Shown one piece after another: positions 1 to 16,601 of a stretch of DNA of 64,000 nt. The notes beneath the pieces were generated by a model that saw only the letters and a program-made list of their open reading frames with translations, had not been told where the DNA came from and searched no databases. Where the stretch lies: IMG/VR virus record IMGVR_UViG_3300002138_000073, positions 1 through 64,000 of that record; one strand, written 5' to 3'. The first letter of the stretch is position 1, and the number at the start of each line of letters is the position of its first letter. The position numbers were made by a program, and so were the translations under genes. Source of the stretch: a virus.

Positions 1-385
1 CCCCCTAAAATTTAATCTTGCCACGAACTATATCAAACAGCATGCACCAATCGTCTACGCCGGAATAAAATTCAATGGTTCTAACTGGCAATCCATCTGA
101 ATCGCCAGAACTTAGTGAACTGCTGCCGAATTTGTTCGCGGAAGATCAGTAAACCATTCCATTGCTGTATGACCAACTCTATCAAATGATTTTGTTGTCT
201 TTACCTTCCACAATACATCAACCAGTACAAGTTCTGGTGTTGGCGAGCTTGTTATCATCTCCACCAATTTGTCTACTAGTGCTGTATTTGAAGACACAAA
301 AGCAGAACCATGCGTTGAACCCGAGTTGGCGTCATCGGTTTTCGTTCTAAATTCGTCTTCCCCGCCAACCGGGTTAACGCTGTCG
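1..385 (+). mobile_element. partial integron-type gene cassette (cassette 0, left end outside window)
   Basis: This is the right-hand part of a cassette that ends at the recombination point inside attC-like site 1 (G385/T386). The R'' arm of that site (CAGAAC, 303-308) predicts a cassette start of GTTCTG, but no such start lies at a plausible place in the window, so the head should be to the left. The body has no good + strand gene. A broken-looking antisense reading frame covers most of it. Confidence 0.6.
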
Positions 386-408
386 TTAGCATTTAAAGAA
401 TCACGCAT
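5..408 (-). pseudogene. antisense cassette 0 gene, apparently frameshifted
   Basis: A - strand frame starts at ATG 406-408, preceded by a GAGGGG Shine-Dalgarno, runs through attC-like site 1 and ends at 112. Beyond the attC-encoded part it reads like protein (LVDKLVEM, GHTAMEWFTDLP). Another frame takes over near 110-135 and reads plausibly (LPVRTIEFYSGVDDWCMLFD) to a TAG at 5-7. The simplest explanation is one protein broken by a frameshift. Two overlapping short genes or a sequencing error are alternatives. I do not recognise the family. Confidence 0.35.
303..391 (+). repeat. attC-like recombination site 1
   Basis: In order: R'' arm CAGAAC (303-308), spacer CAT, L'' arm GCGTTGAACCCG (312-323), extra A324, GTTGGCG (325-331), a 31-base variable centre, CGCCAAC (363-369), L' arm CGGGTTAACGC (370-380), spacer TGTC, and R' GTTAGCA (385-391). 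The L arms pair except for one extra G on the L'' side, and the inner stems pair except for A324. Extrahelical bases on one arm are the hallmark that gives folded attC its polarity. Exchange would occur between G385 and T386. Confidence 0.85.
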
Positions 409-863
409 GAACAACCCCTCTCAACCAATGACCGATTTTTCCAAATACACCAAATTTGACCTTATCACAGTTACTCATGAGTACGATCTTAACGGCAGAA
501 TCCCAAATGGTTGGAGACTTCTTTCCGTTGCAATGCATCGGCCTGAACCCAGTCAGGCAGGGGCTTTTACCGATGAATTTATATGTCTTCTTGGGCAAGA
601 ATCTTCCTAAGAAAGAATCGTTTTCCAAATAAAACAACCAGTGATTGCGATATATATATTCTGAATCCGATCCATGTATATCTACAAAACTGTACATCCT
701 CCAACCGCGTTCAATTAATGCGTTCATCTGTTTGATATCAAACGTACAAACGGCACCGTGCCTTAATGTATAAAAAATGCTAACAATGCGTTGAACCCGA
801 GTTGGCGATCCTGCCGAGTTTGTGCTTTCCACGTCTTCCCCGCCAACCGGGTTAACGCTGTCG
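386..863 (+). mobile_element. complete integron-type gene cassette 1 (478 bp)
   Basis: It is bounded by the exchange points in attC-like sites 1 and 2. The junction sequence GTTAGCATTT (385-394) is exactly complementary to AAATGCTAAC (775-784), the R'' arm of the attC at the far end. That self-complementarity is what a cassette carries when it circularises through its own attC. It holds a short + strand gene (407-610) and an antisense frame from its right end. Its length is in the normal cassette range. Confidence 0.85.
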
Positions 864-889
864 TTCGTTTTCATATTTTCTTCTCTCAT
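401..889 (-). CDS. cassette 1 antisense reading frame led from the cassette 2 head (162 aa)
   Basis: It starts at ATG 887-889, six bases after a GGAG, within the head of cassette 2. It reads through attC-like site 2 (NDSVNPVGGED is attC-encoded) and then into cassette 1. The portion from about 790 down to 600 looks like protein (MNALIERGWRMYSFVDIH, YRNHWLFYLEN). There is no good start codon inside cassette 1 before that portion, so translation would depend on the leader in the next cassette. The C-terminal third is antisense to the 407-610 gene and may be meaningless. Confidence 0.4.
   Translation of the reverse strand: MREENMKTNDSVNPVGGEDVESTNSAGSPTRVQRIVSIFYTLRHGAVCTFDIKQMNALIERGWRMYSFVDIHGSDSEYIYRNHWLFYLENDSFLGRFLPKKTYKFIGKSPCLTGFRPMHCNGKKSPTIWDSAVKIVLMSNCDKVKFGVFGKIGHWLRGVVHA
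407..610 (+). CDS. cassette 1 hypothetical protein (67 aa)
   Basis: This frame lies 21 bases inside the cassette head, in the canonical orientation with its 3' end toward the attC. A weak AAAGA precedes the ATG. The product is soluble, with the segment NGWRLLSVAMHRPEPSQ. I do not recognise the family. A similar GWR-x-x-S-x-x-x-x-H pattern occurs in the convergent antisense frame of the same cassette (GWRMYSFVDIH), so the two may be related. The ATG overlaps the antisense start codon of the neighbouring frame (CATG at 406-409). The frame is also open upstream through attC 1, but that part looks like attC sequence. Confidence 0.5.
   Translation: MNNPSQPMTDFSKYTKFDLITVTHEYDLNGRIPNGWRLLSVAMHRPEPSQAGAFTDEFICLLGQESS
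775..872 (+). repeat. attC-like recombination site 2
   Basis: In order: R'' AAATGCTAAC (775-784), spacer AAT, L'' GCGTTGAACCCG (788-799), extra A800, GTTGGCG (801-807), a 33-base variable centre unlike that of the other two sites, CGCCAAC (841-847), L' CGGGTTAACGC (848-858), spacer TGTC, and R' GTTCGTT (863-869). The arms are identical to site 1, while the R boxes differ as expected when they belong to different cassettes. Exchange point is G863/T864. Confidence 0.88.
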
Positions 890-1334
890 AAATATCTCCA
901 ATGGATCACTTGATAAGTTTACTCATTACTATCTTCGGAGCTTTCCTCGGTGTATGGATCGGCATCTCGTATACCAACAGAAAGGAACTTGCTATATCAG
1001 AGTCCTCTCGTAAAGCTTCACTCAAAGCATTACTCGAATCATTTGAACAAAATCTTCAATACCTAACGCAAATTATTGATTTGGCGACTACTACTTCTGG
1101 CGGTATTCATCCCGAAACTTCTCCTCCCACCTCTTCTCCTCATCCGTCTTTAGCCAATTTTCAAGGCGTGATTCAATTGATTGCAAGCAGTCGAAAGCTG
1201 CTAGAATCAGAAATCGAAACACTGAAGAAATTCGTTTGAGAATCACAGAAAACGAACAATGCGTTGAACCCGAGTTGGCGTCGTCGGTTTTCGTTCTAAA
1301 TTCGTCTTCCCCGCCAACCGGGTTAACACTGTCG
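864..1334 (+). mobile_element. complete integron-type gene cassette 2 (471 bp)
   Basis: The junction GTTCGTTTTC (863-872) is exactly complementary to GAAAACGAAC (1248-1257), the R'' arm of attC-like site 3 at the other end, ten of ten bases. It contains one + strand gene (901-1239) that fills the cassette and stops just before the attC, the textbook cassette arrangement. Confidence 0.88.
901..1239 (+). CDS. cassette 2 small membrane-anchored protein (112 aa)
   Basis: One strongly hydrophobic segment at residues 4-23 (LISLLITIFGAFLGVWIGIS) is followed by a polar, helix-rich tail (residues 25-65 and 85-112) with a Pro/Ser/Thr-rich link near residues 70-84. This suggests a single-span protein with a coiled cytoplasmic part. 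The function is unknown. No Shine-Dalgarno is visible upstream because the 37-base head is occupied by an antisense SD-ATG. The gene stops nine bases before the start of the R'' arm of attC 3. Confidence 0.7.
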   Translation: MDHLISLLITIFGAFLGVWIGISYTNRKELAISESSRKASLKALLESFEQNLQYLTQIIDLATTTSGGIHPETSPPTSSPHPSLANFQGVIQLIASSRKLLESEIETLKKFV

Positions 1335-1369
1335 TTCGCCTCACAACTGAGGTCTTTTTCGTTTTTCAT
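1091..1369 (-). other. antisense frame through attC 3 into cassette 2 (92 codons)
   Basis: ATG 1367-1369 sits six bases after GGAG (1376-1379, - strand), encodes an 11-residue leader, then the attC peptide, then antisense of the 901-1239 gene. The part beyond the attC is probably not a real protein because the sense gene is much more convincing. It is listed because the same SD-ATG arrangement and phase occur at all three cassette heads. Confidence 0.2.
1248..1340 (+). repeat. attC-like recombination site 3
   Basis: In order: R'' GAAAACGAAC (1248-1257), spacer AAT, L'' GCGTTGAACCCG (1261-1272), extra A1273, GTTGGCG (1274-1280), a 31-base centre that matches site 1 at all but one base, CGCCAAC (1312-1318), L' CGGGTTAACAC (1319-1329, one change), spacer TGTC, and R' GTTCGCC (1334-1340). 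No further copy follows, so this is the last recognisable attC of the array. The R' boxes all begin GTT but do not fully fit the GTTRRRY consensus. Confidence 0.85.
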
Positions 1370-1490
1370 AGAATTCTCCAAGTAGGTAAAGTAAAAAATA
1401 AAACCCACCAGACTAAACTCCACATTCGTGCGTCTCAAGGTGAGATGCAAACCCCAAAAGGGGATAACCCTCGCTAGAAAGGAGAGCCTT

Positions 1491-1553
1491 ATGCTCAAAT
1501 TTTTGCAGGACCCCGCAGTCGCCAAGTTTACTTGCGGGGTTCTCGTTGGTTAG
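1491..1553 (+). CDS. 20-codon reading frame with strong ribosome site over an inverted repeat
   Basis: The ATG is preceded by AAAGGAG at a good distance. The peptide MLKFLQDPAVAKFTCGVLVG is encoded across an 8-bp perfect inverted repeat, ACCCCGCA (1510-1517) and TGCGGGGT (1533-1540). It could be a leader peptide, a small membrane peptide or chance. There is no T-run after the stem, so it is not a standard terminator. Confidence 0.3.
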   Translation: MLKFLQDPAVAKFTCGVLVG

Positions 1554-1761
1554 TAGGACTAAGAAGTAAATACAAGCATAATGGAGTTAATGGCAGTAGT
1601 GACCAAAACCACCCACCATTGAATACAATCATTGATAAAAACGCTACCGTCATCAATTGGCCCAGAACATGTAATCTTCGACATGTTTTATTTTGATGCA
1701 AGGTAAGATAATGCATATAATACTCACCAAATGTCATTTTACCCACCTGCACTTTGTTCAT
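1528..1761 (-). CDS. truncated Mpo1-like (DUF962) membrane protein (77 aa)
   Basis: The start at 1759-1761 follows an excellent GGAGG ribosome site seven bases away. The N-terminal half fits the Mpo1/DUF962 family: FGEYYMHYLTLHQNKTCRRLH (two of its residues, H and N, are typical), then a hydrophobic segment. Family members run on to a G-F-x-W-x-G-H-F-F-x-E-K-N region near residue 80. Here the frame instead ends in unrelated sequence (LSPTNQREPRK), so the C-terminus seems cut off at the junction near 1555. It lies just beyond the last attC and may be the body of a truncated third cassette. In yeast, Mpo1 acts in fatty-acid alpha-oxidation; the role here is unknown. Confidence 0.6.
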   Translation of the reverse strand: MNKVQVGKMTFGEYYMHYLTLHQNKTCRRLHVLGQLMTVAFLSMIVFNGGWFWSLLPLTPLCLYLLLSPTNQREPRK

Positions 1762-1806
1762 TTTATTCCTCCAGTCAAGACGCACCGCCCCCATAATCCT
1801 CTTCAC

Positions 1807-2210
1807 CTGAGAGGAATTCCCTAGTGCTTTGTGTCTCCTCCGGTCTGTTTGTTATCTCTTGGTGGTTTCAGGCCCTGATTAAAGGAAAGGTGCGGAATTC
1901 AACGCTACCTCTGTGCCCTTTAGAGCACCCTGAACAGACTCCTTGGATGTGCCTCCCTGCGGTAACGGGACAGCACCTCTTCAACACTCAGTCAGTGAAT
2001 TTGCTTCGGCTAACATTCAACCGGACGCCTTGACACGGTCACCTGCTGGATTTGCACAGACAGGCGTTTTATTACACGACGCTCCATTCCTACACTCATT
2101 CACTGTTTTGCCACTGTGCCCGATTGCTGTTTGAGCCTTCGAAGTTGGGCGACCACCACTCAGAAGCTTTCGCTTACACCTACTATAGTAGTTTTTGGGT
2201 GATAGGTCAA
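1807..2210 (-). ncRNA. gene-poor stretch, possible structured RNA
   Basis: No frame here is convincing. Several are open for short distances on the - strand, which is a weak sign of structured or decayed sequence. On the - strand there is a stem AAGC-GAAA-GCTT with a GNRA-type loop (near 2164-2175), a stem GTGC..TCCC/GGGA..GCAC near 1950-1980, a GTGC/GCAC stem near 1914-1929, and a perfect palindrome CTACTATAGTAG (2180-2191). I could not assign it to a known RNA family. It could also be remnant mobile-element DNA. Confidence 0.2.
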
Positions 2211-2218
2211 GGTTTCCA

Positions 2219-2247
2219 TTGACTTCTTCCGGATTCCGGACTAAAAT
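2219..2247 (+). promoter_or_regulatory. sigma70-type promoter for the SSB operon with palindromes in the spacer
   Basis: TTGACT (2219-2224) and TAAAAT (2242-2247) are separated by 17 bases. The spacer contains two copies of TTCCGGA in tandem; TCCGGA is itself palindromic, so this could be an operator. Predicted transcription starts near 2254, about 30 bases before the SSB start codon. It is the first promoter of the long + strand gene block. Confidence 0.6.
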
Positions 2248-2283
2248 AAGCTGGGATTCCATCTTCTTCAAAAGAGGCACGAT

Positions 2284-2640
2284 ATGATCGGTAATCAGAT
2301 TGTTATTCACGGCAACATCGTAAAAGAACCAAAAATCTTCACAGACAAGAGATTTGCCATTATTCGCTTAGCATCCAACTATAATGATAAAAGAGATGGC
2401 CAAAAGACCATGTTCTTTGATGTCAAGGTATTTGGAGACAGAATGGGCGATATCGATTACTTCGATCCTCAGGTCGGAGACCGTCTTGCAGTGACTGGCT
2501 CCCTAGCTCTAGACGAGTACGAGAAGGACGGAGCACAGCGATCGTCCATGGTAATCTACTGTGACCATTTTGAAAAAATCTGGAGGAGGCCGAAATCGGC
2601 CTCAGAACCAATGGTTAAAGAATCGAAGGCAGACTTTTGA
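2284..2640 (+). CDS. ssb: single-stranded DNA-binding protein (OB fold)
   Basis: A 118-residue protein with the bacterial SSB pattern: an N-terminal strand (IVIHGNIVKEPKIF), a central FFDVKVFG segment near residue 45, VGDRLAVTGSL near 64-74, and a final Y-x-x-x-D-G-x-x-R-S-S-M-V strand near 80-92. It would coat single-stranded DNA during replication. The usual acidic tip is reduced to KADF. The start has AAGAGG upstream. It is the first gene behind the promoter at 2219, and its stop overlaps the next gene. Confidence 0.75.
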   Translation: MIGNQIVIHGNIVKEPKIFTDKRFAIIRLASNYNDKRDGQKTMFFDVKVFGDRMGDIDYFDPQVGDRLAVTGSLALDEYEKDGAQRSSMVIYCDHFEKIWRRPKSASEPMVKESKADF

Positions 2641-2858
2641 AAAAGATACTGGTCGTACTAAATAATGGAGCACAGATATCTTCTGTGCTCGATAATGATG
2701 TAGCCGATAAGACTATCGACCAGTTCTACAATTTGTGTGCTGCGAACATTGATGATCATTGTTTTGAACTATCAGTTCGGAACGAACTAGAGAAGTTGGA
2801 ACATACATTAATCCCATTAAGAAGTATCCTATATGTCTCCTGTAGAGAACAACTCTGA
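2637..2858 (+). CDS. hypothetical phage protein (73 aa)
   Basis: The TTG start overlaps the SSB stop, typical of translational coupling. The product begins MKKILVVLNNGAQI and is mixed in composition with no motif I recognise. Confidence 0.5.
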   Translation: MKKILVVLNNGAQISSVLDNDVADKTIDQFYNLCAANIDDHCFELSVRNELEKLEHTLIPLRSILYVSCREQL

Positions 2859-2908
2859 ACCGTACTCGATAATTCGACTTCCTCACGAACTCATTATGGG
2901 ATTTAATT

Positions 2909-3142
2909 ATGTCGAAAAAGAAACTAAGAAACAAGAAGACAGCGGCCAGAAAGGTTGCTGTAAAAGAGAAGCTTGCAAAGAGACGCCAAAAGATTCGTGC
3001 GGAGGCAAAGGTTGCAAAGCTAATCGCCCAACTACGAAAGGAGATGGGGGATGTCATTGAACCACGAAGTGCTGATACTACAACAGAGGGTGACTTATTT
3101 GGAGGCCCTTGTAGTCCGACTGAAAACAGGACCGATGTGTAG
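2909..3142 (+). CDS. highly basic small protein (77 aa)
   Basis: The first 45 residues are dominated by Lys, Arg and Ala (MSKKKLRNKKTAARKVAVKE), suggesting a helical nucleic-acid-binding protein. The last 30 codons overlap the next gene in another frame, so the true end is uncertain. A competing frame from ATG 2833 is open to 3060; its start overlaps the previous gene, and only its first 35 residues look natural. Confidence 0.45.
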   Translation: MSKKKLRNKKTAARKVAVKEKLAKRRQKIRAEAKVAKLIAQLRKEMGDVIEPRSADTTTEGDLFGGPCSPTENRTDV

Positions 3143-3278
3143 TCGGAGCCACGCGGGGCTCGTCGAATTCGCTGAATTCTTAATCACTGTCGGTAAAGAA
3201 GAAGACTCCCATATCCACGAGGAAGCAGGCTTAGCTCTTAAGAGTACGGCCAATAGATTAAAGGTATACATGGAATGA
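3051..3278 (+). CDS. hypothetical protein (75 aa)
   Basis: The start has a strong AAAGGAG. The product begins with a likely coiled coil (LILQQRVTYLEALVVRL). I do not recognise the family. It overlaps the preceding basic ORF by about 90 bases, more than neighbouring genes do. Confidence 0.5.
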   Translation: MSLNHEVLILQQRVTYLEALVVRLKTGPMCSRSHAGLVEFAEFLITVGKEEDSHIHEEAGLALKSTANRLKVYME

Positions 3279-3559
3279 CTTGGATTCTTGAAGCATATAG
3301 GTACTATGACCACGAGGGAGAAGATACTCTATACATAGATCATGGGAACTTTGACCATATCAAGGCAAAATTTGAAGGTATAACAAAGAGCTTGCCGGGA
3401 TCTGACGATAGTCCTAGTACTGGAGGCCTGTATAAATTCGAGGTCGAACTTTCTGGAATATTTCTATATGGCGACTCTAGAGGTATCAGGATGTATGAGT
3501 TAGAGCCTACTGATCTAGCCTCTATTAAGGACTTTATGGGGATTGCTGATGAAGCTTAA
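3275..3559 (+). CDS. hypothetical protein (94 aa)
   Basis: It starts four bases before the end of the upstream gene and overlaps the next gene's start. The product is acidic (about 15 Asp/Glu) with a beta-rich middle (KFEVELSGIFLY). No family recognised. Confidence 0.5.
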   Translation: MTWILEAYRYYDHEGEDTLYIDHGNFDHIKAKFEGITKSLPGSDDSPSTGGLYKFEVELSGIFLYGDSRGIRMYELEPTDLASIKDFMGIADEA

Positions 3560-4589
3560 TTTCACGTTTGGATATAACGGCACGTCATTTGGCCTCCATG
3601 GTAGCTATACCCTAAAGCATTTGACCGAAAAGGGTTGGGACGTTAGACACATTCCCATAGGACAAACACAACACGAGTCGCGTTTCCCAGTAGCTAATAC
3701 CGAGTTCCACCACAAGGCCCCCTCTCTTCGGTTATGGCACCCAAATGATATGGCAGGATTCACTGGTGAGCCAAAAATTGGGTTCACCGTCTTCGAGCTT
3801 GAAGACCTATCCCCTGTGGAAGTTCACAATACCTCCTATCCAGACAGACTGTTGGTCCCCACCCAATGGGCCGCTGACGTATGTGCCCGATCAGGAGTGA
3901 AGGCCTCTGTCGTCCCGCTTGGTTACGACCCATCTATCTTTTTACCGAGCCCTCCAGAGCCGGGAACTCACACCATCTTCGGAAATTTTGGCAAATGGGA
4001 GATCCGCAAAGGGCACGATGTCCTAATTAAGGCCTTTAATGCTGCTTTCGAGAAGGATGATGAAGTCACCCTAGTCATGATGCCTACTAACGGTTTCCTC
4101 AATCCAGAGCAGACCAGAGCTTGGCAACGCATGTATCTCGAATCGAAGCTTGGGGACAAAGTCCAGATCGTTCCTCGTGTGAATACCCATCAGGACGTAT
4201 TCAATATTATGAGGCAGGTTGATTGTGCCGTATTTCCGGCCCGAGCCGAAGGCTGGAATATGGAAGCTCTGGAGATGATGGGGTGCGGCAAAGAGGTGAT
4301 TATCACCAATTGTACGGGCCACACCGGATTCATTGATGATTCATGCAGAAAAATTGACATGCCAGAAGAGTTCGAGGCCGCTTATGATGGCGTATTTTTC
4401 GGAGGATTCTCTAAGTGGCGTAAATTTACTAAGAATAGTTTTGACCAACTTGTTGAGCATATGCGAAATGTCCATAGGTCCAGAGTTGACTTGAAACTAA
4501 ATCAATTGGCGGTAAATAGAGCTGACCAGTTTACTTGGGAGAAATCTACTAATGTTTTGGCGAAAGAAATCGAATCCACAGAAGGATAA
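3549..4589 (+). CDS. glycosyltransferase, GT-B fold (family 4-like)
   Basis: A 346-residue protein with the two-domain layout of GT-B enzymes. The C-terminal half carries NFGKWEIRKGHDVLIKAF and the donor-site signature EGWNMEALEMMGCGKEVI, with the paired glutamates of the E-x7-E motif. It should transfer a sugar from a nucleotide-sugar donor; acceptor unknown (virion protein, DNA or host surface). I prefer ATG 3549 to the TTG at 3543. Another glycosyltransferase and a sugar-nucleotide gene cluster lie at 31766-41212. Confidence 0.75.
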   Translation: MKLNFTFGYNGTSFGLHGSYTLKHLTEKGWDVRHIPIGQTQHESRFPVANTEFHHKAPSLRLWHPNDMAGFTGEPKIGFTVFELEDLSPVEVHNTSYPDRLLVPTQWAADVCARSGVKASVVPLGYDPSIFLPSPPEPGTHTIFGNFGKWEIRKGHDVLIKAFNAAFEKDDEVTLVMMPTNGFLNPEQTRAWQRMYLESKLGDKVQIVPRVNTHQDVFNIMRQVDCAVFPARAEGWNMEALEMMGCGKEVIITNCTGHTGFIDDSCRKIDMPEEFEAAYDGVFFGGFSKWRKFTKNSFDQLVEHMRNVHRSRVDLKLNQLAVNRADQFTWEKSTNVLAKEIESTEG

Positions 4590-4815
4590 CTATATATCAT
4601 TTTACCTAGATGGGGAAGATCTACAGGTAGAATTCGGATTTGACGATATCAATCAAATAACCCTAATTGCGGATCTAGTCTTGAACGGCAAGATCCGCAA
4701 TTCTTGTTTCCAGACCATAAAATCCAAACTTGAGGAGGAAGGACTTAAGAACGAAGCAGCCTTTTTTGCACAATCAGTCGACAAAACAATCAAACCTAGT
4801 GAGTATGCCCCATGA
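4552..4815 (+). CDS. hypothetical protein (87 aa)
   Basis: It overlaps the end of the glycosyltransferase gene by 38 bases in another frame. The segment YLDGEDLQVEFGFDDINQI suggests a small alpha/beta fold. No function assigned. Confidence 0.5.
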   Translation: MFWRKKSNPQKDNYISFYLDGEDLQVEFGFDDINQITLIADLVLNGKIRNSCFQTIKSKLEEEGLKNEAAFFAQSVDKTIKPSEYAP

Positions 4816-5381
4816 TCGAGAGACAAATAGCTTGGGAAAAATGGCGTGACTTTAACGATGAAGACTCAGACATCGATCCTGTCGATACGCATGAAGACTC
4901 TGACGAGCCAGACGAATCAGATGAAGGCCATTTTGAGTTAGTGCCTGTAATTGTTAGGACGCCTATCGGAAATTACAGCCCTTTCGAGCCCCTACTTCCT
5001 AGTAACATGTTCGATTGCTGGATATGTCATACCAATTTCGACATAAATGAGTCCGATAAAGCGATGCTAGATCTAGTAGAAGGAATAGAAGTCCTCAAAG
5101 TCATGACTAGATACCGATTCTTCATCGGTATAGGTAAGATGTTTTCCCTGACCGAGGTCAGGCCATTAGTGGAAGCCGCCCTGAGAGTTAATCAAAAAAG
5201 TCACATATCTGCAATAATTTCAGAAATCTTTGGCAAAAAGAGATGGGCGGTCGGCATTTATGATGATGGGAGCCACATCTCAATTTCGTCTGAGAGTGAC
5301 AATGATGAGCTTTTTGATACTAGTCTAAAAGACCTAAAAGAATCAGGAGCGATTAATATCGTTACTTCAGAAGATGTCTAA
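4812..5381 (+). CDS. conserved-looking phage protein, acidic N-terminus (189 aa)
   Basis: Residues 15-40 are very acidic (EDSDIDPVDTHEDSDEPDES). Then follows a folded region with FDCWICHTNF and MTRYRFFIGIGKMF. I have the impression of similar proteins in other large phages but cannot name a family or activity. It is the last gene before a 73-base gap. Confidence 0.5.
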   Translation: MIERQIAWEKWRDFNDEDSDIDPVDTHEDSDEPDESDEGHFELVPVIVRTPIGNYSPFEPLLPSNMFDCWICHTNFDINESDKAMLDLVEGIEVLKVMTRYRFFIGIGKMFSLTEVRPLVEAALRVNQKSHISAIISEIFGKKRWAVGIYDDGSHISISSESDNDELFDTSLKDLKESGAINIVTSEDV

Positions 5382-5454
5382 GCGTATTTATTATTAGGAA
5401 AACAGGACTTCTCTTTTACTGGATATTTTGGACGGGTGTTGCTGGAGATCTATT

Positions 5455-6084
5455 ATGGCACTTTTGCCAAGCGGTTATGTCGTAGGTACTCGTGGCGTTT
5501 ATTCCACGCCTACTGAAGAAATTGGTGCTGTAGCGATGGGCATTACTGATGCCACAACTGTTACTGCTGGTAATCCTTATACTCAGACACTTCCTCTCAG
5601 AACTGGAATAACTTCTGGTGTTATGTCTACACGTAGAAGCCGTGTTATTGCCGCTTCTGGCCTGAACCATGCTTATAGTGCTGGTAAAGCACTTGCTGCT
5701 GGTACTTTTGCGTACGATCCTAACGCATTTTTGATTCAAGGGTATAGCACGACCATTAATGGTATTGCTAATAACTCACTTCTATTCACTGGCGGGGATC
5801 AGTATCGTCAGCGACGTTCTCTTCGACAGAAGTCTTGGGGCTACAAGTATTCTACTGCCATCCGGGCCGGATACTTCAGCTTCACTAAGATCTCTGGTAA
5901 GAGAACTAACTGGACGACTGACCCATCCGCCCTTAATGATACGTTCCGGTCTACTACGGACAATGCAGTAGCATCTGACGATCAAGCTATCTATGTAACA
6001 TACAGGTCTATTCCCGGAGAATTGGTCTACATGCAGGGGTCTCTTACTCCCCTTGTGGCTGACTACCCTGCTGTTACTGGTTAA
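5455..6084 (+). CDS. putative virion protein (209 aa)
   Basis: ATG 5455 is preceded by GGAG at eight bases; a longer TTG start at 5428 is less likely. The product is rich in Gly, Ser, Thr and Tyr with few charged residues (LPSGYVVGTRGVYSTPTEE, TTINGIANNSLLFTGGDQY), the composition of a capsid or tail surface protein. It is flanked by a gap and a strong terminator, so it may be transcribed separately. Specific role unknown. Confidence 0.45.
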   Translation: MALLPSGYVVGTRGVYSTPTEEIGAVAMGITDATTVTAGNPYTQTLPLRTGITSGVMSTRRSRVIAASGLNHAYSAGKALAAGTFAYDPNAFLIQGYSTTINGIANNSLLFTGGDQYRQRRSLRQKSWGYKYSTAIRAGYFSFTKISGKRTNWTTDPSALNDTFRSTTDNAVASDDQAIYVTYRSIPGELVYMQGSLTPLVADYPAVTG

Positions 6085-6095
6085 CCTGACCGACT

Positions 6096-6120
6096 AGGGG
6101 GCGAAAGCCCCCTGTCTTAA
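6096..6120 (+). terminator. rho-independent-type terminator
   Basis: The stem AGGGGGC/GCCCCCT (6096-6113) closes a GAAA loop and is followed by GTCTTAACTCTTCT. It lies 12 bases after the putative virion gene. The same core hairpin recurs in sense orientation on the other strand at 62093-62110. Confidence 0.75.
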
Positions 6121-6142
6121 CTCTTCTATAAAGGCTTAAGCC

Positions 6143-6400
6143 ATGAACTTCTTGTCTAAACTAAAAAACGTAATGTTCGGCAAGTCAGAACCGTCTAAAT
6201 CAGAGACTGGCGTTATAGACGTAGTAGATATCACCAAGGTAACCCGCACTGGTATCCTAATGGGCCTTGCTACAACTGTCGCATACCTGCTCTCGAATGT
6301 CAAACCAGAAATGTTTGGCGATCATGCGGGAATTGCCGCTGTAGTACTTACAGTAGTTGGGGAACTTTCTTTGAGGTTTTTGAAATCAAACGGGAAATAA
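6143..6400 (+). CDS. small membrane protein (85 aa), holin-like in size
   Basis: Two hydrophobic segments (ILMGLATTVAYLLSNV near 37-52, and IAAVVLTVVGELSLRFL near 63-80) end in a short basic tail. The layout and the position before other membrane and secreted proteins would fit a holin, but this is inference. Confidence 0.5.
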   Translation: MNFLSKLKNVMFGKSEPSKSETGVIDVVDITKVTRTGILMGLATTVAYLLSNVKPEMFGDHAGIAAVVLTVVGELSLRFLKSNGK

Positions 6401-6401
6401 C

Positions 6402-6695
6402 ATGGATACAATTTATGATTTTTTGGTGGCCAACAAGCTACCTGTCGGTGGTGGACTTATTGCTATTGTTATGCTGTGGGACAAGATCAAGGTAGCCTTC
6501 GGCTCCCTCAAAGGAAAGATCAAACTTCCAGTCTTGTCAAAAGCTGAGCCAGACCAAGAATTGGCAGATCAAAGTGCTATTAAGCATCTTCGAGATAGAG
6601 CTGCTTCTTTTGGTGATAAGGAGCTTACACTACTAATCAAAGAAATTGATACAAGATTCTATGACATTCATTCAGGAGTAAAAAATGAGAAGTAA
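6402..6695 (+). CDS. small membrane protein with soluble tail (97 aa)
   Basis: A hydrophobic segment at residues 14-27 (LPVGGGLIAIVMLW) is followed by a charged helical tail. It is one base after the previous gene and overlaps the next, so the three are co-translated. No family recognised. Confidence 0.5.
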   Translation: MDTIYDFLVANKLPVGGGLIAIVMLWDKIKVAFGSLKGKIKLPVLSKAEPDQELADQSAIKHLRDRAASFGDKELTLLIKEIDTRFYDIHSGVKNEK

Positions 6696-7065
6696 GCTCT
6701 TCGCACTCCTTGCACTGATTGTGATGTCATATTCTGCTTTGGCTGTGGACAAAGATGCAGTAGCTAAAGCTGTCAAAGACGACAACATTTCAGCACAAGA
6801 CTGCCGCAAGTGGTACACAGTCTATAAAGGCGCGTACATCTACGTCAAAGAGCTAGATGCTGCAGGCTCAAAAGACTTTGGCGATGTCTTTGATAAGATT
6901 ATCTTTGTAAGAGATAAGACTCTTCCAACTAAGGGCAACGCCAACTTTGTCAAAGCAACAGACCTGTCTGCTTATACTGACGCCGACTTCACGGCAGAGA
7001 AAAGAACAGATCTAGCTGAAGACCTATACAAAATCTGTGAAGGCCTTAAGGCAGGAATGAAATAA
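6685..7065 (+). CDS. secreted protein with signal peptide (126 aa)
   Basis: It begins MRSKLFALLALIVMSYSALA, a typical Sec signal with predicted cleavage after residue 20. The mature part is mixed helical with two cysteines (residues 39 and about 119 by rough count). It should be exported to the periplasm or cell surface of the host. Its stop overlaps the start of the cysteine peptidase gene. Confidence 0.55.
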   Translation: MRSKLFALLALIVMSYSALAVDKDAVAKAVKDDNISAQDCRKWYTVYKGAYIYVKELDAAGSKDFGDVFDKIIFVRDKTLPTKGNANFVKATDLSAYTDADFTAEKRTDLAEDLYKICEGLKAGMK

Positions 7066-7958
7066 TGGAAACTTATAACATTTCTGGCTGGGTTGACTTG
7101 CCAGAAGAAGTAGACGCTGTTGAATCTGAATTCGGTGTATTCGGATCAGTAGCGTCTTTTCTTACAGAGACCGGCAAAGGTAAAATAGTTTGTCTCCATG
7201 ACAACTATACTAAAGCTGGTTCTAGTTTCTACTATGTGAATCAGGGAAATATAGGTAGCTGTGTAAGTGCTTCCGCGTCCCTCATCACTAATACCTTGAT
7301 GGTGACAGAGATAGCAAATGGGGAGAGAGAGATCCTCAAAGGATGGATTGCTATCGAACCATTGTACTATGGGGCCAGAGTTGTCATAGGTGGCAATAGG
7401 ATCAGAGGCGATGGTGCTATTGTAGCTCACCAGATTCAATACATGAATGAATATGGGACTCTACTAAAGCAGAAGTATGGAGCTATTGATCTAACGGAGT
7501 ACTCTGTAGATAGATGTCGCAAATGGGGAACTGGATCTGGCTTCCCAAAGACACTAGAGGATATCTCTAAAGACCATACTGTTTCAGTCTTCTCAAGAGT
7601 TAAATCTTATGAGGAAGTAAGAGACAGTATTGCTAATGGGTATCCTGTAGAAGTTGGATCATCTTATGGTTTTGCTAGTGAGACCGATGAAGAAGGTTTC
7701 TGTAGGCAAAATACAACTTGGCAGCATGCTCTATCTATTATTGCAGTCGATGACGACAGTAAAAGAAAAGGGTGTATGATCTCCAATACTTGGCCACTTA
7801 GCTGGCTTAAGATTCGTAAGCGTAAGCTCAATCAGCCAGATGGATGTTTCTGGGTTGATGCTGAAACAATCGATCGTATGGCGAAAAATGGAGATGCGTG
7901 GTCTATAGGCGGATTTAACGGCTATAAGAAGCCAGTCAATACAAACGTTAGCTGGTAG
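7065..7958 (+). CDS. papain-like (C1-type) cysteine peptidase
   Basis: A 297-residue protein with the papain-fold signature in order: Q60-x5-C66 (NQGNIGSCVSASAS), H221 in WQHALSIIAV, and N241 followed by TW (SNTWP). That gives a complete Cys/His/Asn triad plus the oxyanion-hole Gln. No signal peptide is seen. It could process a phage protein, act in lysis, or inactivate a host protein. It sits in a chain of small membrane or exported proteins and directly before a thioredoxin-fold protein. Confidence 0.7.
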   Translation: METYNISGWVDLPEEVDAVESEFGVFGSVASFLTETGKGKIVCLHDNYTKAGSSFYYVNQGNIGSCVSASASLITNTLMVTEIANGEREILKGWIAIEPLYYGARVVIGGNRIRGDGAIVAHQIQYMNEYGTLLKQKYGAIDLTEYSVDRCRKWGTGSGFPKTLEDISKDHTVSVFSRVKSYEEVRDSIANGYPVEVGSSYGFASETDEEGFCRQNTTWQHALSIIAVDDDSKRKGCMISNTWPLSWLKIRKRKLNQPDGCFWVDAETIDRMAKNGDAWSIGGFNGYKKPVNTNVSW

Positions 7959-7966
7959 GATACCAA

Positions 7967-8581
7967 ATGAAAAAGATATTGATAGTTATAATCGTAATAC
8001 TTATGCTCCTGCCAAATTCATCAAGTCCGTCAATAGTCTCTGTAGATGTGTCAGCAGAAGACTTTGAAGCATATGGAATCGCTGGTGCTCTGGCAATGCT
8101 ACCAAATGAAGATGGTGTCCCAGATGTGCCAACTCCAGTAAATGACAAGTGTACATGTGTAAATGGCAAAGTGTCATATGATGGTGGGACCTCCTTGACG
8201 GATTGTAAGTGTAAAAACTCTGACTCGAATTGTGGATGCAAGAAGTCGGTAAAAGAAGAAGTGCCAGACTTGTTCCCCCGCACTGTACTGGTGACCCAAC
8301 CATCCATTTGTCCCCCATGTGTGACGGTAGATAGGAACATTGTAGCTAGACTAAGAAATGAAGAACATAAGAAAGCTGGCTGGGATGTAGGTACAGAAGC
8401 ATTCAATGACTTTCAGGTTCTAGACCTTGATGATGAGTCTGCATCTGCCGAAGTTAAGAGGCTTAACCTGAGTTACACCGCTATTCCTACTTTCTTCTAT
8501 ATGGATAAGGATGGAGTGACGAAGATTCACACCGGACTTATGTCATATGATGGCTATATCAAATGGTCTAAAAAAAACTGA
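7967..8581 (+). CDS. membrane-anchored or secreted thioredoxin-fold protein
   Basis: The N-terminus is a hydrophobic anchor or signal (IVIIVILMLLP). Residues 62-91 form a cysteine-rich segment (eight Cys in C-x-C and C-x-C-x-C type spacing). The thioredoxin domain carries CPPC at residues 115-118 and the cis-proline motif AIPTFF at 172-177. It should do thiol-disulfide exchange outside the cytoplasm. It follows the cysteine peptidase; the 1813-residue cysteine-rich virion protein encoded at 41638-47079 is a possible client (inference). Confidence 0.65.
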   Translation: MKKILIVIIVILMLLPNSSSPSIVSVDVSAEDFEAYGIAGALAMLPNEDGVPDVPTPVNDKCTCVNGKVSYDGGTSLTDCKCKNSDSNCGCKKSVKEEVPDLFPRTVLVTQPSICPPCVTVDRNIVARLRNEEHKKAGWDVGTEAFNDFQVLDLDDESASAEVKRLNLSYTAIPTFFYMDKDGVTKIHTGLMSYDGYIKWSKKN

Positions 8582-8598
8582 GTACTACGTACTCTCGT

Positions 8599-8778
8599 GT
8601 GAGTCATCGTCTATGGAAGCTAAATGGGTCATTCTCTCCTGACATGAATCAATTAATTCAGCATCTCCAATCAGAGCATAGAATATCTAATCTAGACGAT
8701 TTATCATACGAAGACCTATTAGCAATTCACGATGATGATCACAACGGAGTATACAATGAAGCTAATAGATCTTTTTGA
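8599..8778 (+). CDS. small hypothetical protein (59 aa)
   Basis: A short frame fills the gap after the thioredoxin-like gene. GTG 8599 gives 59 residues and ATG 8644 gives 44; no clear ribosome site distinguishes them. The C-terminal part (NLDDLSYEDLLAIHDDDHNG) reads like a real acidic helical protein. It overlaps the start of the next gene by 23 bases. Confidence 0.4.
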   Translation: MSHRLWKLNGSFSPDMNQLIQHLQSEHRISNLDDLSYEDLLAIHDDDHNGVYNEANRSF

Positions 8779-9049
8779 GGAACTCGTCAAGAATAAAACT
8801 GTTGAAGTATCAGATGGGGTAAATATCAGATGCGGAGACGAAATCAACTTGGTGGTATCATCGCATAATGATGAAGTCGTAATCAGGTTTGGATCTCCCG
8901 CTGTTCAGGTTTTCATTTCGAAGATGGGGCCGCTGCGGCTCTTGAATGCTGTTCGGCCCACTATCGAATCAATCACTATAACTGACAAATCTTTCAAGAT
9001 CAGTGTAGATAATGCTCCAGATATGGAGGTGAAGCGTGAACTGGTATGA
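8756..9049 (+). CDS. hypothetical protein (97 aa)
   Basis: ATG 8756 is preceded by GGAG; upstream in-frame starts lack a site. The protein alternates strands (EINLVVSSHNDEVVIRFG, ESITITDKSFKISV), suggesting a small beta fold. No family recognised. Confidence 0.5.
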   Translation: MKLIDLFEELVKNKTVEVSDGVNIRCGDEINLVVSSHNDEVVIRFGSPAVQVFISKMGPLRLLNAVRPTIESITITDKSFKISVDNAPDMEVKRELV

Positions 9050-9314
9050 CGAATACTGCAAAGAATTTGGCTACTCTGCAAAAGCCGGTCGCAGGGGTGA
9101 GAGAGATGCAGAAAGACTCAAGAGGAGAGTAGAGAAAGCCGCCACTCTGGAAAAAGAGGATCTCTCTTCTTTTACTGATCGGACTTCGGCAGAAGCCCAT
9201 CTGGAGGATAAAGCCGTAGGCATGTACGGGTCGTTTGGATTCATGCTGTTTCAGGTGATCATTTCGTGGGTGATCAGGAAAATTTTAGATTCATATTTTG
9301 GGGCAAATAAATGA
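9036..9314 (+). CDS. small protein with C-terminal membrane segment (92 aa)
   Basis: The GTG start is preceded by GGAGGTG. A charged helical N-terminal region (RGERDAERLKRRVEKA) is followed by a hydrophobic stretch near residues 65-82 (GFMLFQVIISWVIRKIL). It could be a tail-anchored membrane protein; spanin- or holin-related roles cannot be excluded. Confidence 0.5.
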   Translation: MNWYDEYCKEFGYSAKAGRRGERDAERLKRRVEKAATLEKEDLSSFTDRTSAEAHLEDKAVGMYGSFGFMLFQVIISWVIRKILDSYFGANK

Positions 9315-9820
9315 CAATCAAAGTTGTAGCTAGTTCTCAGGTCAAGACCACATACAATTTTACAGAGACATCTTCTACTTCGGTAAGATCGAATCTGGAA
9401 ACTGTAAACTCTGCTCCTGCTTACACCTATGGAAGTGGAAACTTTGAGATTAATGCTGGAGTAAAAAATACTGGGGTATTACCATCTGGTGGTGCTACTA
9501 TAATAGACCTTGCATCTATGTCTAGTACGTCCTTTGGGATCACATCCACTGTCGCATTTACAGGCGTGAAGAATGTGACAGTGTATAACACTTCTACGGT
9601 ACAAAACAGAGACATCAATATCAGAGCCACAGGCTCTAATGCTTTCACGAACCTATTCAATGGTGAGTCTGGCAATCTACTGATTAAACCATACTCAAGC
9701 TTCAGCTACAGCGACCCATACAGCTTGGCAGTAACTGGTTCACAAAAGAATATCAGCTTGTTCGACGTGAGTGGGTCTGGTGCCACTTACGAGATTTGTG
9801 TGTTGGGAAATATTGTTTAA
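9311..9820 (+). CDS. putative virion protein, beta-rich (169 aa)
   Basis: Rich in Ser, Thr, Asn and Gly, low in charge, with the C-terminal pattern LLIKPYSSFSYSDPYS and a DVSGSGATYEI ending that I associate with phage head- or tail-associated proteins. Exact role unknown. Confidence 0.5.
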   Translation: MTIKVVASSQVKTTYNFTETSSTSVRSNLETVNSAPAYTYGSGNFEINAGVKNTGVLPSGGATIIDLASMSSTSFGITSTVAFTGVKNVTVYNTSTVQNRDINIRATGSNAFTNLFNGESGNLLIKPYSSFSYSDPYSLAVTGSQKNISLFDVSGSGATYEICVLGNIV

Positions 9821-9833
9821 TATAAGGCATAAA

Positions 9834-10688
9834 ATGAACGAACCACCCATTGATGGCGAAGAAGAAGTAGATTACATGCGAAGATGCATGAAGTCTTTTG
9901 GTGATCAAGACATAGACAATGAAGAAAAAGCCTCAATATGTCTAGCTTCTTTTAGGGGCGACTCTAAAGGCAGCAAGGACATACTCTCAAGAATAGATTT
10001 TCATCTCTGTTGTTCAAAATATCTAACAGATATTGAGACTGGCTACGAAGAAGAGCTTACCGAGGCCAACTTTTATATTCCAGAAGTTTCTGAATATGAG
10101 GACTTTGGCGAAGAAACAGAAGAGGTGTCTGCGTCTAGCTTGTGGGAGAATATAAGAAACAAGAAGAAAAAGCTTGGCAAAAATTATAAACCAGCAAAGC
10201 CCGGAGACAAGGATCGTCCTGATCCAAAGTCTTGGAAAAAGGCTCAGTCTGGAGAAGGCGAAATGGCCAAGGACCAGATAAAAAAGATGCACACTCAGTT
10301 GGTGTCTATTGTTAGCAAGATGGAAACAATGGACATTGAACTTGAAGAGTGGACCACTGACATGGTGTCAAAGGCAGAGATTTACATTCAAAACATCTTT
10401 GACTTTGTTGAATCTTATAGTGGAGAGTCTGATACATCGTACTCTTCTGAGTATCAAGGAAGAACTGTAACCCTCAACAAACCATTCAGAACTCCCAAAG
10501 GTCCCAAGAAGTTTTCTGTTTATACGAAAAACGAAAAGGGCAATGTAGTGAAGGTGAATTTCGGCGATCCGAACAGTACCATTAAGAAAAATATCCCAGA
10601 ACGTCGGAAAAGTTTTAGAGCTAGACACAACTGCGACAATCCGGGGCCGAAATGGAAAAGTCGATACTGGAGCTGCAAGAACTGGTGA
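9834..10688 (+). CDS. phage protein with C-terminal Cys-containing prohead-type domain (284 aa)
   Basis: I start at ATG 9834; the frame is open upstream but that part overlaps the preceding gene. The first half is acidic, with three Cys near residues 18, 36 and 59, then a Lys/Pro-rich linker. The last 80 residues (KPFRTPKGPKKFSVY ... FRARHNCDNPGPKWKSRYWSC) match a domain common at the end of prohead core or maturation proteins of large phages. A promoter/terminator element follows. Confidence 0.55.
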   Translation: MNEPPIDGEEEVDYMRRCMKSFGDQDIDNEEKASICLASFRGDSKGSKDILSRIDFHLCCSKYLTDIETGYEEELTEANFYIPEVSEYEDFGEETEEVSASSLWENIRNKKKKLGKNYKPAKPGDKDRPDPKSWKKAQSGEGEMAKDQIKKMHTQLVSIVSKMETMDIELEEWTTDMVSKAEIYIQNIFDFVESYSGESDTSYSSEYQGRTVTLNKPFRTPKGPKKFSVYTKNEKGNVVKVNFGDPNSTIKKNIPERRKSFRARHNCDNPGPKWKSRYWSCKNW

Positions 10689-10713
10689 CATTGCCCGAAT
10701 CCGCAAGTTGCTC

Positions 10714-10742
10714 TTGACATCCTGACCTCCGAGGGCTATAAT
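10714..10742 (+). promoter_or_regulatory. perfect-consensus sigma70 promoter
   Basis: TTGACA (10714-10719), a 17-base spacer, and TATAAT (10737-10742) match the bacterial housekeeping consensus at every base and spacing. The -10 box lies exactly in the loop of a 10-bp hairpin. It would drive the genes from 10783, starting near 10749. Confidence 0.7.
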
Positions 10743-10760
10743 CCTCGGAGGTTATTTTGT
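10725..10760 (+). terminator. hairpin terminator enclosing the -10 box
   Basis: Stem ACCTCCGAGG (10725-10734) and CCTCGGAGGT (10743-10752), loop GCTATAAT, followed by TATTTTGTTT. It ends the upstream gene block. As DNA, the same inverted repeat flanks the -10 box and could serve as an operator. Confidence 0.75.
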
Positions 10761-10782
10761 TTAACGTCTAGATGGTGTACGC

Positions 10783-11310
10783 ATGATGATTCTCCAGCTC
10801 AACCCGCCAATCCATGTGATGACCCCATTGGGCGAGGCATTTGCCAAGCTCGTGATCGACTATGGGCCTGATGTAAACCCAATCTTTGTGTGTGACATTT
10901 TCAAAGACAGGGCCTGCGTTAGCATCGATAGTGCCGAGATACGTTTCGGGGGCAACCCGATGTATGATTTGCAAGACCCAGAACCATTCAAGAGTTGGGC
11001 TGATTATCATGGAGAGAGAGATATGAAGAATCGCTGTGTTGAGACGATGACCAAGACCACATTCTACGGATACAACGTCCGGGTCTGGTCCAACTGTGAA
11101 CAGCCAGACAGGGCTCTGGCAAACTTCATGGGACCAGACAAGAGGGTGGTTGAGGTCATCACTGAGGTGCTGGGGTTCGTGCTGCAAGTAGGTCTGACCG
11201 AGTCGCTTGAGTACCTGCGGGACGAGCTTGAGAAGCTGGACCACGTTGCTGCGTATGAGATCGTTGATTCAGAAGGCCAAGGGGTTGTAGTTTATCCGGA
11301 TTGGAAGTAA
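10783..11310 (+). CDS. conserved-type phage protein, possibly two joined parts (175 aa)
   Basis: The first 65 residues (TPLGEAFAKLVIDYGPDVNP, then FVCDIFKDRACVSIDSAEIRF) look like a small phage domain in which TP-G-A-x-x-I-DYGP-x-x-N is typical. The rest is a helical region of unknown family. An in-frame ATG near 11023 has a good purine-rich site (GGAGAGAGAGAT), so a shorter second product is possible. It is the first gene behind the promoter at 10714. Confidence 0.5.
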   Translation: MMILQLNPPIHVMTPLGEAFAKLVIDYGPDVNPIFVCDIFKDRACVSIDSAEIRFGGNPMYDLQDPEPFKSWADYHGERDMKNRCVETMTKTTFYGYNVRVWSNCEQPDRALANFMGPDKRVVEVITEVLGFVLQVGLTESLEYLRDELEKLDHVAAYEIVDSEGQGVVVYPDWK

Positions 11311-11312
11311 CT

Positions 11313-11678
11313 ATGACTTATGAATATTTAGCTACTGTAATCTCGGTCTATGATGGTGATACGATCACAGTCTCAGTCGATCTCGGGTTCCATATCTCAC
11401 AGACGATGTCGGTAAGACTCGCTAGAATCAACTCTCCTGAAGTCCGAGGGGTTTCTTCCACAGAGGGGCTAGAGGCAAGAGACTTTCTTAGGTCTATCCT
11501 GCCAGTCGGCACGAGGGTGACTCTTGTCACCCACAAAGATGGTCGAGAGAAGTATGGGCGATATTTGGCGGACGTTTACTTGAACGAACTGGAGTGTTGG
11601 TCCGAGCCAAACCTCTTCAAATGCGTTAACGATATGATGGTGGCTAAAGGGTTCGCTCAATTGAAGGAATACAAATGA
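11313..11678 (+). CDS. staphylococcal-nuclease-like (thermonuclease) protein
   Basis: A 121-residue SNase/TNase domain without a signal peptide. Visible motifs are YDGDT (residues 13-17, metal site), VRLARINSPE (34-43, with the catalytic Arg and Glu), and KYGRYLADV (80-88, second catalytic Arg). It would cut DNA or RNA to 3'-phosphates, calcium dependent. A cytoplasmic version in a phage could degrade host DNA or RNA. The ATG at 11313 is preferred over the TTG at 11301. Confidence 0.8.
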   Translation: MTYEYLATVISVYDGDTITVSVDLGFHISQTMSVRLARINSPEVRGVSSTEGLEARDFLRSILPVGTRVTLVTHKDGREKYGRYLADVYLNELECWSEPNLFKCVNDMMVAKGFAQLKEYK

Positions 11679-12364
11679 CAAATCACGTTGATGGTATTGT
11701 GTCTTTTATGCAGAAGGCTGGTCAGGCAACCCCAGAGAAGCTGACTGTTCCTTCAGAACAGGATCGAATGCTTCGAGCCAAGCTCATTATCGAAGAAGCC
11801 TTTGAACTGATCAATAAGGGTCTAGGAATTGAGGTCAGTAATTTTGGCCACTTTTTGAACCCGAATGATTTCAAATACATTATTACTGGAGAGGCCGATC
11901 CTGTTGAGTCTCTCGATGGGGCTGCTGACCTGTATTGGGTTGGTGTGGGCGGGGTTTCAGTCATCTTCGGGGCTCATCTGGACTCAGTCCTCGACGAGGT
12001 AGATCGAAGCAACCAGTCCAAGTTTATCGATGGGCATAGACGCGAAGACGGAAAATGGATTAAAGGTCCGTCGTACAGTCAAGCCGACATTAAATCTGTT
12101 CTTCGCGACCGTGTCCGCCCTGTCAGCCCATTGGGCGAAGGCTACTATGCCATGCCGCACGAATGTGGTGATAACGCTTGGTATATTGTTGATAAGGATT
12201 TCTGGCATAATCACCGCTATATTCCAGACTGGGAGATTTGCTTGAGGGTTCCGGGATTTGACGAAGGCTCAGAATCTTGCTATCACCCAGTCGATGATCG
12301 GGTTGGTAGTAACGAAGCTGAAAATATGCTGAAAGCCCTTGGTTTTACTATTTTGGACGAATAA
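11675..12364 (+). CDS. MazG/PRA-PH-type NTP pyrophosphohydrolase with extra C-terminal region
   Basis: Residues 1-145 match the all-alpha NTP pyrophosphatase fold: RAKLIIEEAFELI (the E-x-x-E metal helix), DGAADLYWVGVGG (second metal helix with D), and VDRSNQSKFIDGHRREDGKW. Such enzymes hydrolyse (d)NTPs to monophosphates plus PPi, and phage versions may tune nucleotide pools or alarmones. Residues 150-229 are unrelated, with several His, Trp and Cys (HNHRYIPDWEICLRV), and I do not recognise them. Confidence 0.75.
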   Translation: MTNHVDGIVSFMQKAGQATPEKLTVPSEQDRMLRAKLIIEEAFELINKGLGIEVSNFGHFLNPNDFKYIITGEADPVESLDGAADLYWVGVGGVSVIFGAHLDSVLDEVDRSNQSKFIDGHRREDGKWIKGPSYSQADIKSVLRDRVRPVSPLGEGYYAMPHECGDNAWYIVDKDFWHNHRYIPDWEICLRVPGFDEGSESCYHPVDDRVGSNEAENMLKALGFTILDE

Positions 12365-12365
12365 G

Positions 12366-13103
12366 ATGCTTCGCGTTGTGGGCGATGTTCACGGAAAGTT
12401 CAGTCAGTACCTGAAGATAGCAAAAAAGGCAGAGCACAGCCTTTGTCTGGGCGACTTTGGCTTCGCCGATAGCTGGAATAAGCTGCACTATTCGGGACTC
12501 AATCCTGAGTCCCATAAGGTGCTTGCTGGGAACCATGACCCGTATGATATGGCTCCTCAGAGCCTATTCTACCTTGGCGACTTCGGAGAAGCCACCATCG
12601 GCGGTGTAACCGCCTTCTTTATTAGGGGAGGCATCTCCATCGACCGCACCTACCGAGAGGCTGAGCGGATCAATAGGGGGCCTAGAACATGGTGGTCTCA
12701 GGAGGAACTCAACTTCGCCCAAATGATCGAGTGCATGAAGGCCTACCGGAAGGCGAAGCCCTCCATCGTGGTATCGCATGTGCCTGCGGCTAGTTTCGCT
12801 TCAATCATGTCCCCAGACGATAAGATTCTGACAGACTTCGGCTTTCATAAGGGGTTTAAGGAAGCCACCCAGCTATTGGGGGATGAGCTTTTAAAGATCC
12901 ATAGACCGAAGATGTGGCTGTCTGGTCATTTTCACAAGTCCTTTCAGGATGAAATTGGTGGGACTAATTTTATTGGTCTTGCCGAGCTAGAATACGTAGA
13001 TGTGTGCGTCTGCGGTGGGCTGCTTGAAAGAGTCGCTTCAAGTTTCCCATACTCTGAGAGTCATTTTCAGTGCAATTTATGTGATTCAACAGTTGGAGAA
13101 TAG
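12366..13103 (+). CDS. calcineurin-like metallophosphoesterase
   Basis: A 245-residue protein with the full metallophosphoesterase motif set: D7-x-H9 in GDVHG, GD30 in LGDFG, G-N56-H57-D, a VVSHVP histidine, and GHFH near the C-terminus. Substrate unknown; phage relatives act on protein phosphates, nucleotides or RNA ends. It overlaps neither neighbour and starts one base after the preceding stop. Confidence 0.75.
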   Translation: MLRVVGDVHGKFSQYLKIAKKAEHSLCLGDFGFADSWNKLHYSGLNPESHKVLAGNHDPYDMAPQSLFYLGDFGEATIGGVTAFFIRGGISIDRTYREAERINRGPRTWWSQEELNFAQMIECMKAYRKAKPSIVVSHVPAASFASIMSPDDKILTDFGFHKGFKEATQLLGDELLKIHRPKMWLSGHFHKSFQDEIGGTNFIGLAELEYVDVCVCGGLLERVASSFPYSESHFQCNLCDSTVGE

Positions 13104-13104
13104 T

Positions 13105-13419
13105 ATGCAAAGTGCAAAAAAGCAATACATTGAGAGTGTGGTTCCCACACTGACTCGTGAAGGAAAAACTCTTGACGAGGCAGTAGCTCACGCATCAGTG
13201 CTTTGGGAGAAAAGTATTGCTCTCGAATCGCAGCAGGCTCTTGAGGTATGTTCTGAGAGTAGCTTAGAATTTACAGCCGAAGTAACGAGCGATGGGTTCA
13301 AGACCGTCGTTCAGGAAGAAGACGTCTTTGAAGATATGACTTTTGCTCAAGCATTTGCAGCTCTAAAGTGCGAGCCCGGCAAGAGATACGAAATCGAGAT
13401 TTCGGTTGAGGAAGTATAG
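13105..13419 (+). CDS. hypothetical acidic protein (104 aa)
   Basis: ATG 13105 follows GGAGAA. The first 50 residues look helical (PTLTREGKTLDEAVAHASVL), and the C-terminal half is acidic (QEEDVFEDMTFAQAF). No family recognised. Confidence 0.5.
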   Translation: MQSAKKQYIESVVPTLTREGKTLDEAVAHASVLWEKSIALESQQALEVCSESSLEFTAEVTSDGFKTVVQEEDVFEDMTFAQAFAALKCEPGKRYEIEISVEEV

Positions 13420-13456
13420 GGCTTTGCCCATATCCTTTTTTTTAAGGCGAAGCCAA

Positions 13457-14005: not shown

Positions 14006-14007
14006 CC

Positions 14008-14918: not shown

Positions 14919-14928
14919 GGACGAAGTC

Positions 14929-15780: not shown

Positions 15781-15821
15781 GGTATATTGTTTGTGATTTA
15801 CCTTCGGACAACGGCTATTGG

Positions 15822-16043: not shown

Positions 16044-16052
16044 GGGCGTAGC

Positions 16053-16589: not shown

Positions 16590-16601
16590 GATTTTGTGAC
16601 T

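Follow-up and report, generated by a model that had tools for sequence, protein, structure and literature searches.

The window analysed here covers bases 1-64,000 of a linear virus record in IMG/VR that is 69,294 bases long. At its left end it carries an enzyme-like phage gene interrupted by integron-type gene cassettes, and we consider it very likely that this phage genome captured part of a cassette array of planctomycete type. Read from left to right, the insert begins with the 3' part of a cassette (cassette 0) ending in attC1, continues with cassettes 1 and 2, which include attC2 and attC3 respectively, and closes with the 5' part of a further cassette (cassette 3); it is bordered on both sides by remnants of the gene that it interrupts (window coordinates; E-values refer to the covariance model R2, described below):

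1-52, minus strand: left phage flank, encoding the remaining C terminus of an Mpo1-like gene (DWCMLFDIVRGKIKF; stop codon 5-7)
53-1579, no strand assigned: insertion of 1,527 nt, a cassette-array fragment in place of 91 nt of phage gene
53-301, plus strand: cassette 0, truncated (3' part only), with attC1 at its end
302-390, plus strand: attC1 (R' at 385-390, GTTAGC; E = 1.2e-13; bottom-strand fold z-score -3.8)
385-862, plus strand: cassette 1, complete, including attC2; head/R'' match 10/10
407-610, plus strand: cassette 1 ORF, 67 aa, predicted DUF4177/DUF1737-like fold
778-868, plus strand: attC2 (R' at 863-868, GTTCGT; E = 2.1e-13)
863-1333, plus strand: cassette 2, complete, including attC3; head/R'' match 10/10
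901-1239, plus strand: cassette 2 ORF of 112 aa with an apparent membrane segment at its N terminus
1251-1339, plus strand: attC3 (R' at 1334-1339, GTTCGC; E = 5.9e-15)
1334-1579, plus strand: cassette 3, truncated (5' part only); no attC found by R2 before the phage junction
1580-1761, minus strand: remaining N-terminal part of the Mpo1-like gene (starts with the ATG at 1761 and runs into the insert as far as a stop at 1528)

The insertion was mapped to the base by comparison with two relatives in which the site is empty. The first (IMGVR_UViG_3300035438_001158, hereafter L005; SSB 90% identical) encodes an intact Mpo1-like gene of 106 residues on the minus strand (PF06127, E = 2e-27), and the second (IMGVR_UViG_3300042556_001858, hereafter L115; 123,595 bases) has the same locus, again with the gene intact. 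Against both relatives homology breaks at window positions 52 and 1580, with no match in between; 91 nt of the relatives' gene are absent from the window and the 1,527-nt insertion stands in their place. The left flank matches L005 (3948-3999) and L115 with 90% identity over 52 nt (E about 1e-15) and aligns by tblastn to the last 21 residues of the intact protein (76%), while the N-terminal remnant aligns to residues 1-54 of the L005 protein (tblastn, 93%) and retains a PF06127 match (E = 1e-8). The left junction thus rests on a short stretch, a 52-base flank at the very end of the contig. Since the lost 91 nt encode the GHxxxExNxPA motif, which each of the 80 related viral loci retrieved has in frame, the Mpo1-like gene is almost certainly inactive in this phage, as judged from its sequence. 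No attC sites were present in these 80 loci, nor were any recovered when parts of the two phage relatives were searched with R2.

The 123.6-kb relative is collinear with window positions 1-17,059 and with the right part of the record, and its sequence goes on for about 55 kb past the counterpart of window position 1, so that the record holds the phage genome only in part. As both flanks of the insert belong to one phage gene (each matching the two relatives) and the longer relative is collinear, the cassettes are internal to the phage genome. The first-pass annotation had envisaged either a phage carrying cassettes or a phage adjoining the terminus of an array in a chromosome; the former is supported by an insert contained within a single phage gene, and the latter is not supported, the gene being intact in two relatives and the longer one running past the left end of the window. 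A chromosome or prophage boundary at the left end was likewise rejected, both flanks being one phage gene. The chimeric join that had been suspected between 1340 and 2284 is unlikely, given that phage sequence runs without interruption over 1580-2852, at 90% and 82% identity to the two relatives.

All three attC sites lie on the plus strand and point in one direction. Their full attC architecture, proposed from the letters of the sequence, was borne out by an independent covariance model, by bottom-strand folds and by pair counts. The model (R2) was assembled from 16 attCs, drawn from viral contigs other than this one and from planctomycete genomes and arrays; window sequence was excluded so that the sites under test had no part in the training. 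It recovered the three sites (E-values between 5.9e-15 and 2.1e-13) and, in a scan of the whole 69,294-base record, no attC besides them. An Rfam search gave no match, the relaxed threshold included. Each site is an imperfect palindrome of R''-L''-L'-R' layout whose arms pair and which has its extrahelical bases on one half; folded as single-stranded DNA, the bottom strands of attC1 to attC3 give the expected bulged hairpins (z-scores of -3.8, -3.0 and -2.4, respectively). In the alignment of an earlier model, which included the window sites, the arms covaried strongly, and the signal was gone once the partner was slid by one base. The finer features noticed in the first-pass annotation were found again: relative to L', the L'' half has one extra G and one extra A, and two of the variable centres (attC1 and attC3) are one base apart.

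The textbook R' core site of attC is GTTRRRY. The box of attC1 reads GTTAGC, and those of attC2 (GTTCGT) and attC3 (GTTCGC), two of the three thus beginning GTTCG, depart from this consensus. The complementarity described between cassette heads and R'' arms was re-found in both complete cassettes (385-394 with 775-784 and 863-872 with 1248-1257, 10 of 10 bases each). In the planctomycete arrays used for comparison (51 cassettes) the head/R'' match beyond the GTT averages 5.0 of 7 positions, and the window's 7 of 7, reached twice, sits at the high end of the range.

With three attCs in the same direction within 1.04 kb and no match to the tyrosine recombinase family (PF00589) in the record, which is incomplete, the locus is a CALIN, a grouping of at least two attC sites without an integron integrase nearby. 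It is not a complete integron, in which intI and attI lie beside the array: the proposed search for them yielded no PF00589 match and no attI in the 69,294-base record, and phage gene adjoins both edges of the insert. The head of cassette 0 (expected GTTCTGC, matching R'' GCAGAAC) is absent from window positions 1-1700. For the cassette 1 ORF, AlphaFold2 run from the sequence alone predicted a fold with fair confidence (pLDDT 78.7), whose best viral fold match was DUF4177 (probability 0.99, with a weak E-value of 0.076), DUF1737 also matching with a weak E-value. The cassette 2 ORF has the top coding score among the six frames and no significant family match. Within cassette 3, a plus-strand ORF of 20 codons (1491-1553), preceded by a good ribosome site (AAAGGAG) that overlaps a GC-rich hairpin, stops just before the right junction and resembles the start of a truncated cassette gene. 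The cassette ORFs that were searched had no convincing homologues in phages, viral contigs or 294 genomes of the planctomycete phylum.

The donor was probably planctomycete-like, as judged from the attC sequences. The array that donated the fragment was not found. Among the attCs recovered, the closest is a lone site in a MAG of Fuerstiella (Planctomycetota; L008 1739-1829), which shares the attC type and an identical R' half (CGGGTTAACGCTGTCGTTCG), although it differs in its chromosomal rather than phage location and reaches only 74% identity over 85 nt. At the L'' arm of this Fuerstiella attC (L008 1714-1760), AATGCGTTGAACCC is tandemly repeated. Attachment sites of this kind are common in the class to which Fuerstiella belongs, where the R1 attC model found matches in 55 of 149 genomes. 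The GTTC box (C at the fourth base of R') is also common in planctomycetes: it was counted in 37 of 80 planctomycete, none of 34 gammaproteobacterial and none of 29 other viral sites, counts that are not independent (array members share ancestry) and in which the viral sites form a biased sample, their contigs having been found with one attC pattern. Against a planctomycete source, the insert has a G+C content of about 0.43, which is near that of the phage and falls below that of most planctomycetes. Planctomycete attCs have been found distinctive enough to support a taxon-specific model (PMC8352920). By extension from the donor type, a planctomycete may also be the host of the phage.

The exact attC half-site had zero matches in the viral and genome collections. 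The gapped attC pattern gave seven matches in genomes, of which those in Fuerstiella and one Phycisphaerae MAG were kept; the other five (L009, L010, L011, L012 and L014) were discarded as chance-like, being located in coding sequence and devoid of the outer attC arms. Seven contigs listed as viral in IMG/VR (L015-L021) have attCs, and two of them (L018 and L019) hold long arrays of about nine or more.

We propose that a piece of the donor array, comprising two complete cassettes and a partial one on each side, was inserted into the Mpo1-like gene, an entry which, as the empty sites show, replaced 91 bases and removed the GHxxxExNxPA motif. From the insert edges at 53 and 1579 to the nearest attC or core site the distance is about 249 and 240 bases, respectively. 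Integrase-catalysed entry would place an R' core at the edge of the insert; as none is seen there and the cut in each outer cassette falls within the cassette body, the entry was probably not catalysed by an integrase, and would instead have proceeded by illegitimate recombination or by the mending of a broken end while the phage grew in its host. The competing account, in which an integron integrase inserted the cassettes serially at a secondary site (attC x GTT-like) and the ends eroded later, could draw on the 10/10 head/R'' matches of both complete cassettes, which are like those of recently mobile cassettes, and on the capacity of phage attCs to serve as integrase substrates (PMC9892861). 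We nonetheless regard it as very unlikely, for it has to accommodate edges that far from any core, two incomplete outer cassettes and the disappearance of 91 target bases.

An assembly artefact joining a bacterial cassette contig to a phage contig appears extremely unlikely. Metagenome contigs are known to be sometimes chimeric, and the left flank amounts to 52 bases at a contig end; against this, both ends of the insert lie in one phage gene, whose halves are in the right order and orientation, and the 91-base gap is identical with respect to the two relatives, so that two joins at matching places would be required. Insertion by a transposon or at a tRNA was rejected too, there being no tRNA in the window and no end repeats seen at 53 and 1579. 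Following array-fragment capture, the attCs would have retained the features needed by an integrase, even though the record is without one (the missing portion of the phage genome could encode it). Given a host that produces an integron integrase, both complete cassettes would be expected to excise as circles and to insert at the host attI.

The cassette heads further hold a recurrent pattern on the minus strand. In all three of them an SD-like core precedes an ATG by 6 nt (ATGs at 1369, 889 and 408), and the three ATGs are in one common phase with respect to the crossover triplet, each opening a frame that traverses the adjacent attC:

1091-1369, minus strand: antisense ORF A, start signals in the cassette 3 head, runs through attC3 (sequence and shuffle test)
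401-889, minus strand: antisense ORF B, start signals in the cassette 2 head, runs through attC2 (sequence and shuffle test)
112-408, minus strand: antisense ORF C, start signals in the cassette 1 head, runs through attC1 (sequence, shuffle test and coding score)

These could be read as expressed genes that start in a head and run back through the attC into the preceding cassette, their N-termini being swapped in frame. Such a reading concerns expression and not origin, and is compatible with array-fragment capture. In its favour, the same-phase SD-ATG pattern is found in three of three heads, arises in shuffled heads at frequencies of 0.032, 0.028 and 0.006 (product 5e-6) and recurs in 2 of 143 other attC heads; ORFs B and C have coding scores about those of phage genes (C scoring above its plus frames), and reading on the minus strand follows the direction of the interrupted gene and of the glycosyltransferases that lie downstream in L005. 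The test, however, was picked after the pattern was seen, the searched ORFs are without homologues, and ORF B is not predicted to fold (AlphaFold2 pLDDT 34.5, a low-confidence result that is not decisive alone), whereas the plus-strand ORF at 407-610 is predicted to fold and that at 901-1239 has the best score in its region. By predicted fold or coding score, the plus-strand ORFs of cassettes 1 and 2 are better supported than the antisense ORFs, and we consider expression from the minus strand unlikely. Its fuller version, where cassette genes run antisense to attC, each cassette head supplies the neighbouring gene with its start signal in a fixed reading phase, the attC encodes a linker peptide, recombination swaps N-terminal leaders in frame and the phage holds a small gene set oriented as its own glycosyltransferase operon, strikes us as quite unlikely. 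The planctomycete heads examined contained no such antisense starts, in which they differ from the heads of the window. The two other occurrences (L018 20-78 and L015 7808-7876) were the only others examined with a same-phase antisense ribosome site and ATG.

The attCs of the window resemble that of aadA1 from class 1 integrons, which has the same AACAA spacer, the same GTT.AA..CGA layout of L'' and extra bases in the same two places; they differ from it in their arms, their longer centre and their GTTC R' boxes. Finding cassettes in a phage had been considered unexpected, but attC clusters without integrase were published in 2023 from temperate and virulent phages (PMC9892861). That study reported 17 phage CALINs, found that IntI1 recombined five of the six attCs assayed, and left the entry route of phage-borne cassettes conjectural (PMC9892861). 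Our locus is like those in being an attC cluster without integrase in a phage genome, with sites in one direction and canonical bulged arms; unlike them, it lies in a metagenomic phage and has planctomycete-type attCs, two of them with GTTC R' boxes, and its insertion is resolved to single-base precision in a phage gene for which two relatives show the empty site. Relative to the known phage CALINs (PMC9892861), the locus adds an empty site that has been mapped, a phage gene that is broken and attCs of planctomycete type. The two empty-site relatives make the event readable, as a fragment cut across cassette boundaries that replaced part of an accessory-looking gene. Phages become plausible carriers of planctomycete cassettes, and the locus offers a defined substrate for asking whether phage-borne cassettes re-excise; the antisense start signals, if true, would constitute a new way of wiring cassette expression.

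To the right of the interrupted gene, about 500 bases upstream of the SSB gene (1774-2283) are without a convincing gene, and the part from 1774 to about 2160 is nearly identical in L005, its conservation being above that of the neighbouring coding sequence. This region may be a structured RNA or a control region; it has no Rfam match and an ordinary folding energy. As for the interrupted gene family, Mpo1-like genes (PF06127) were present on at least 109 viral contigs, but a search of 50,697 deposited phage records found them in only two; they represent a common uncharacterised phage gene.
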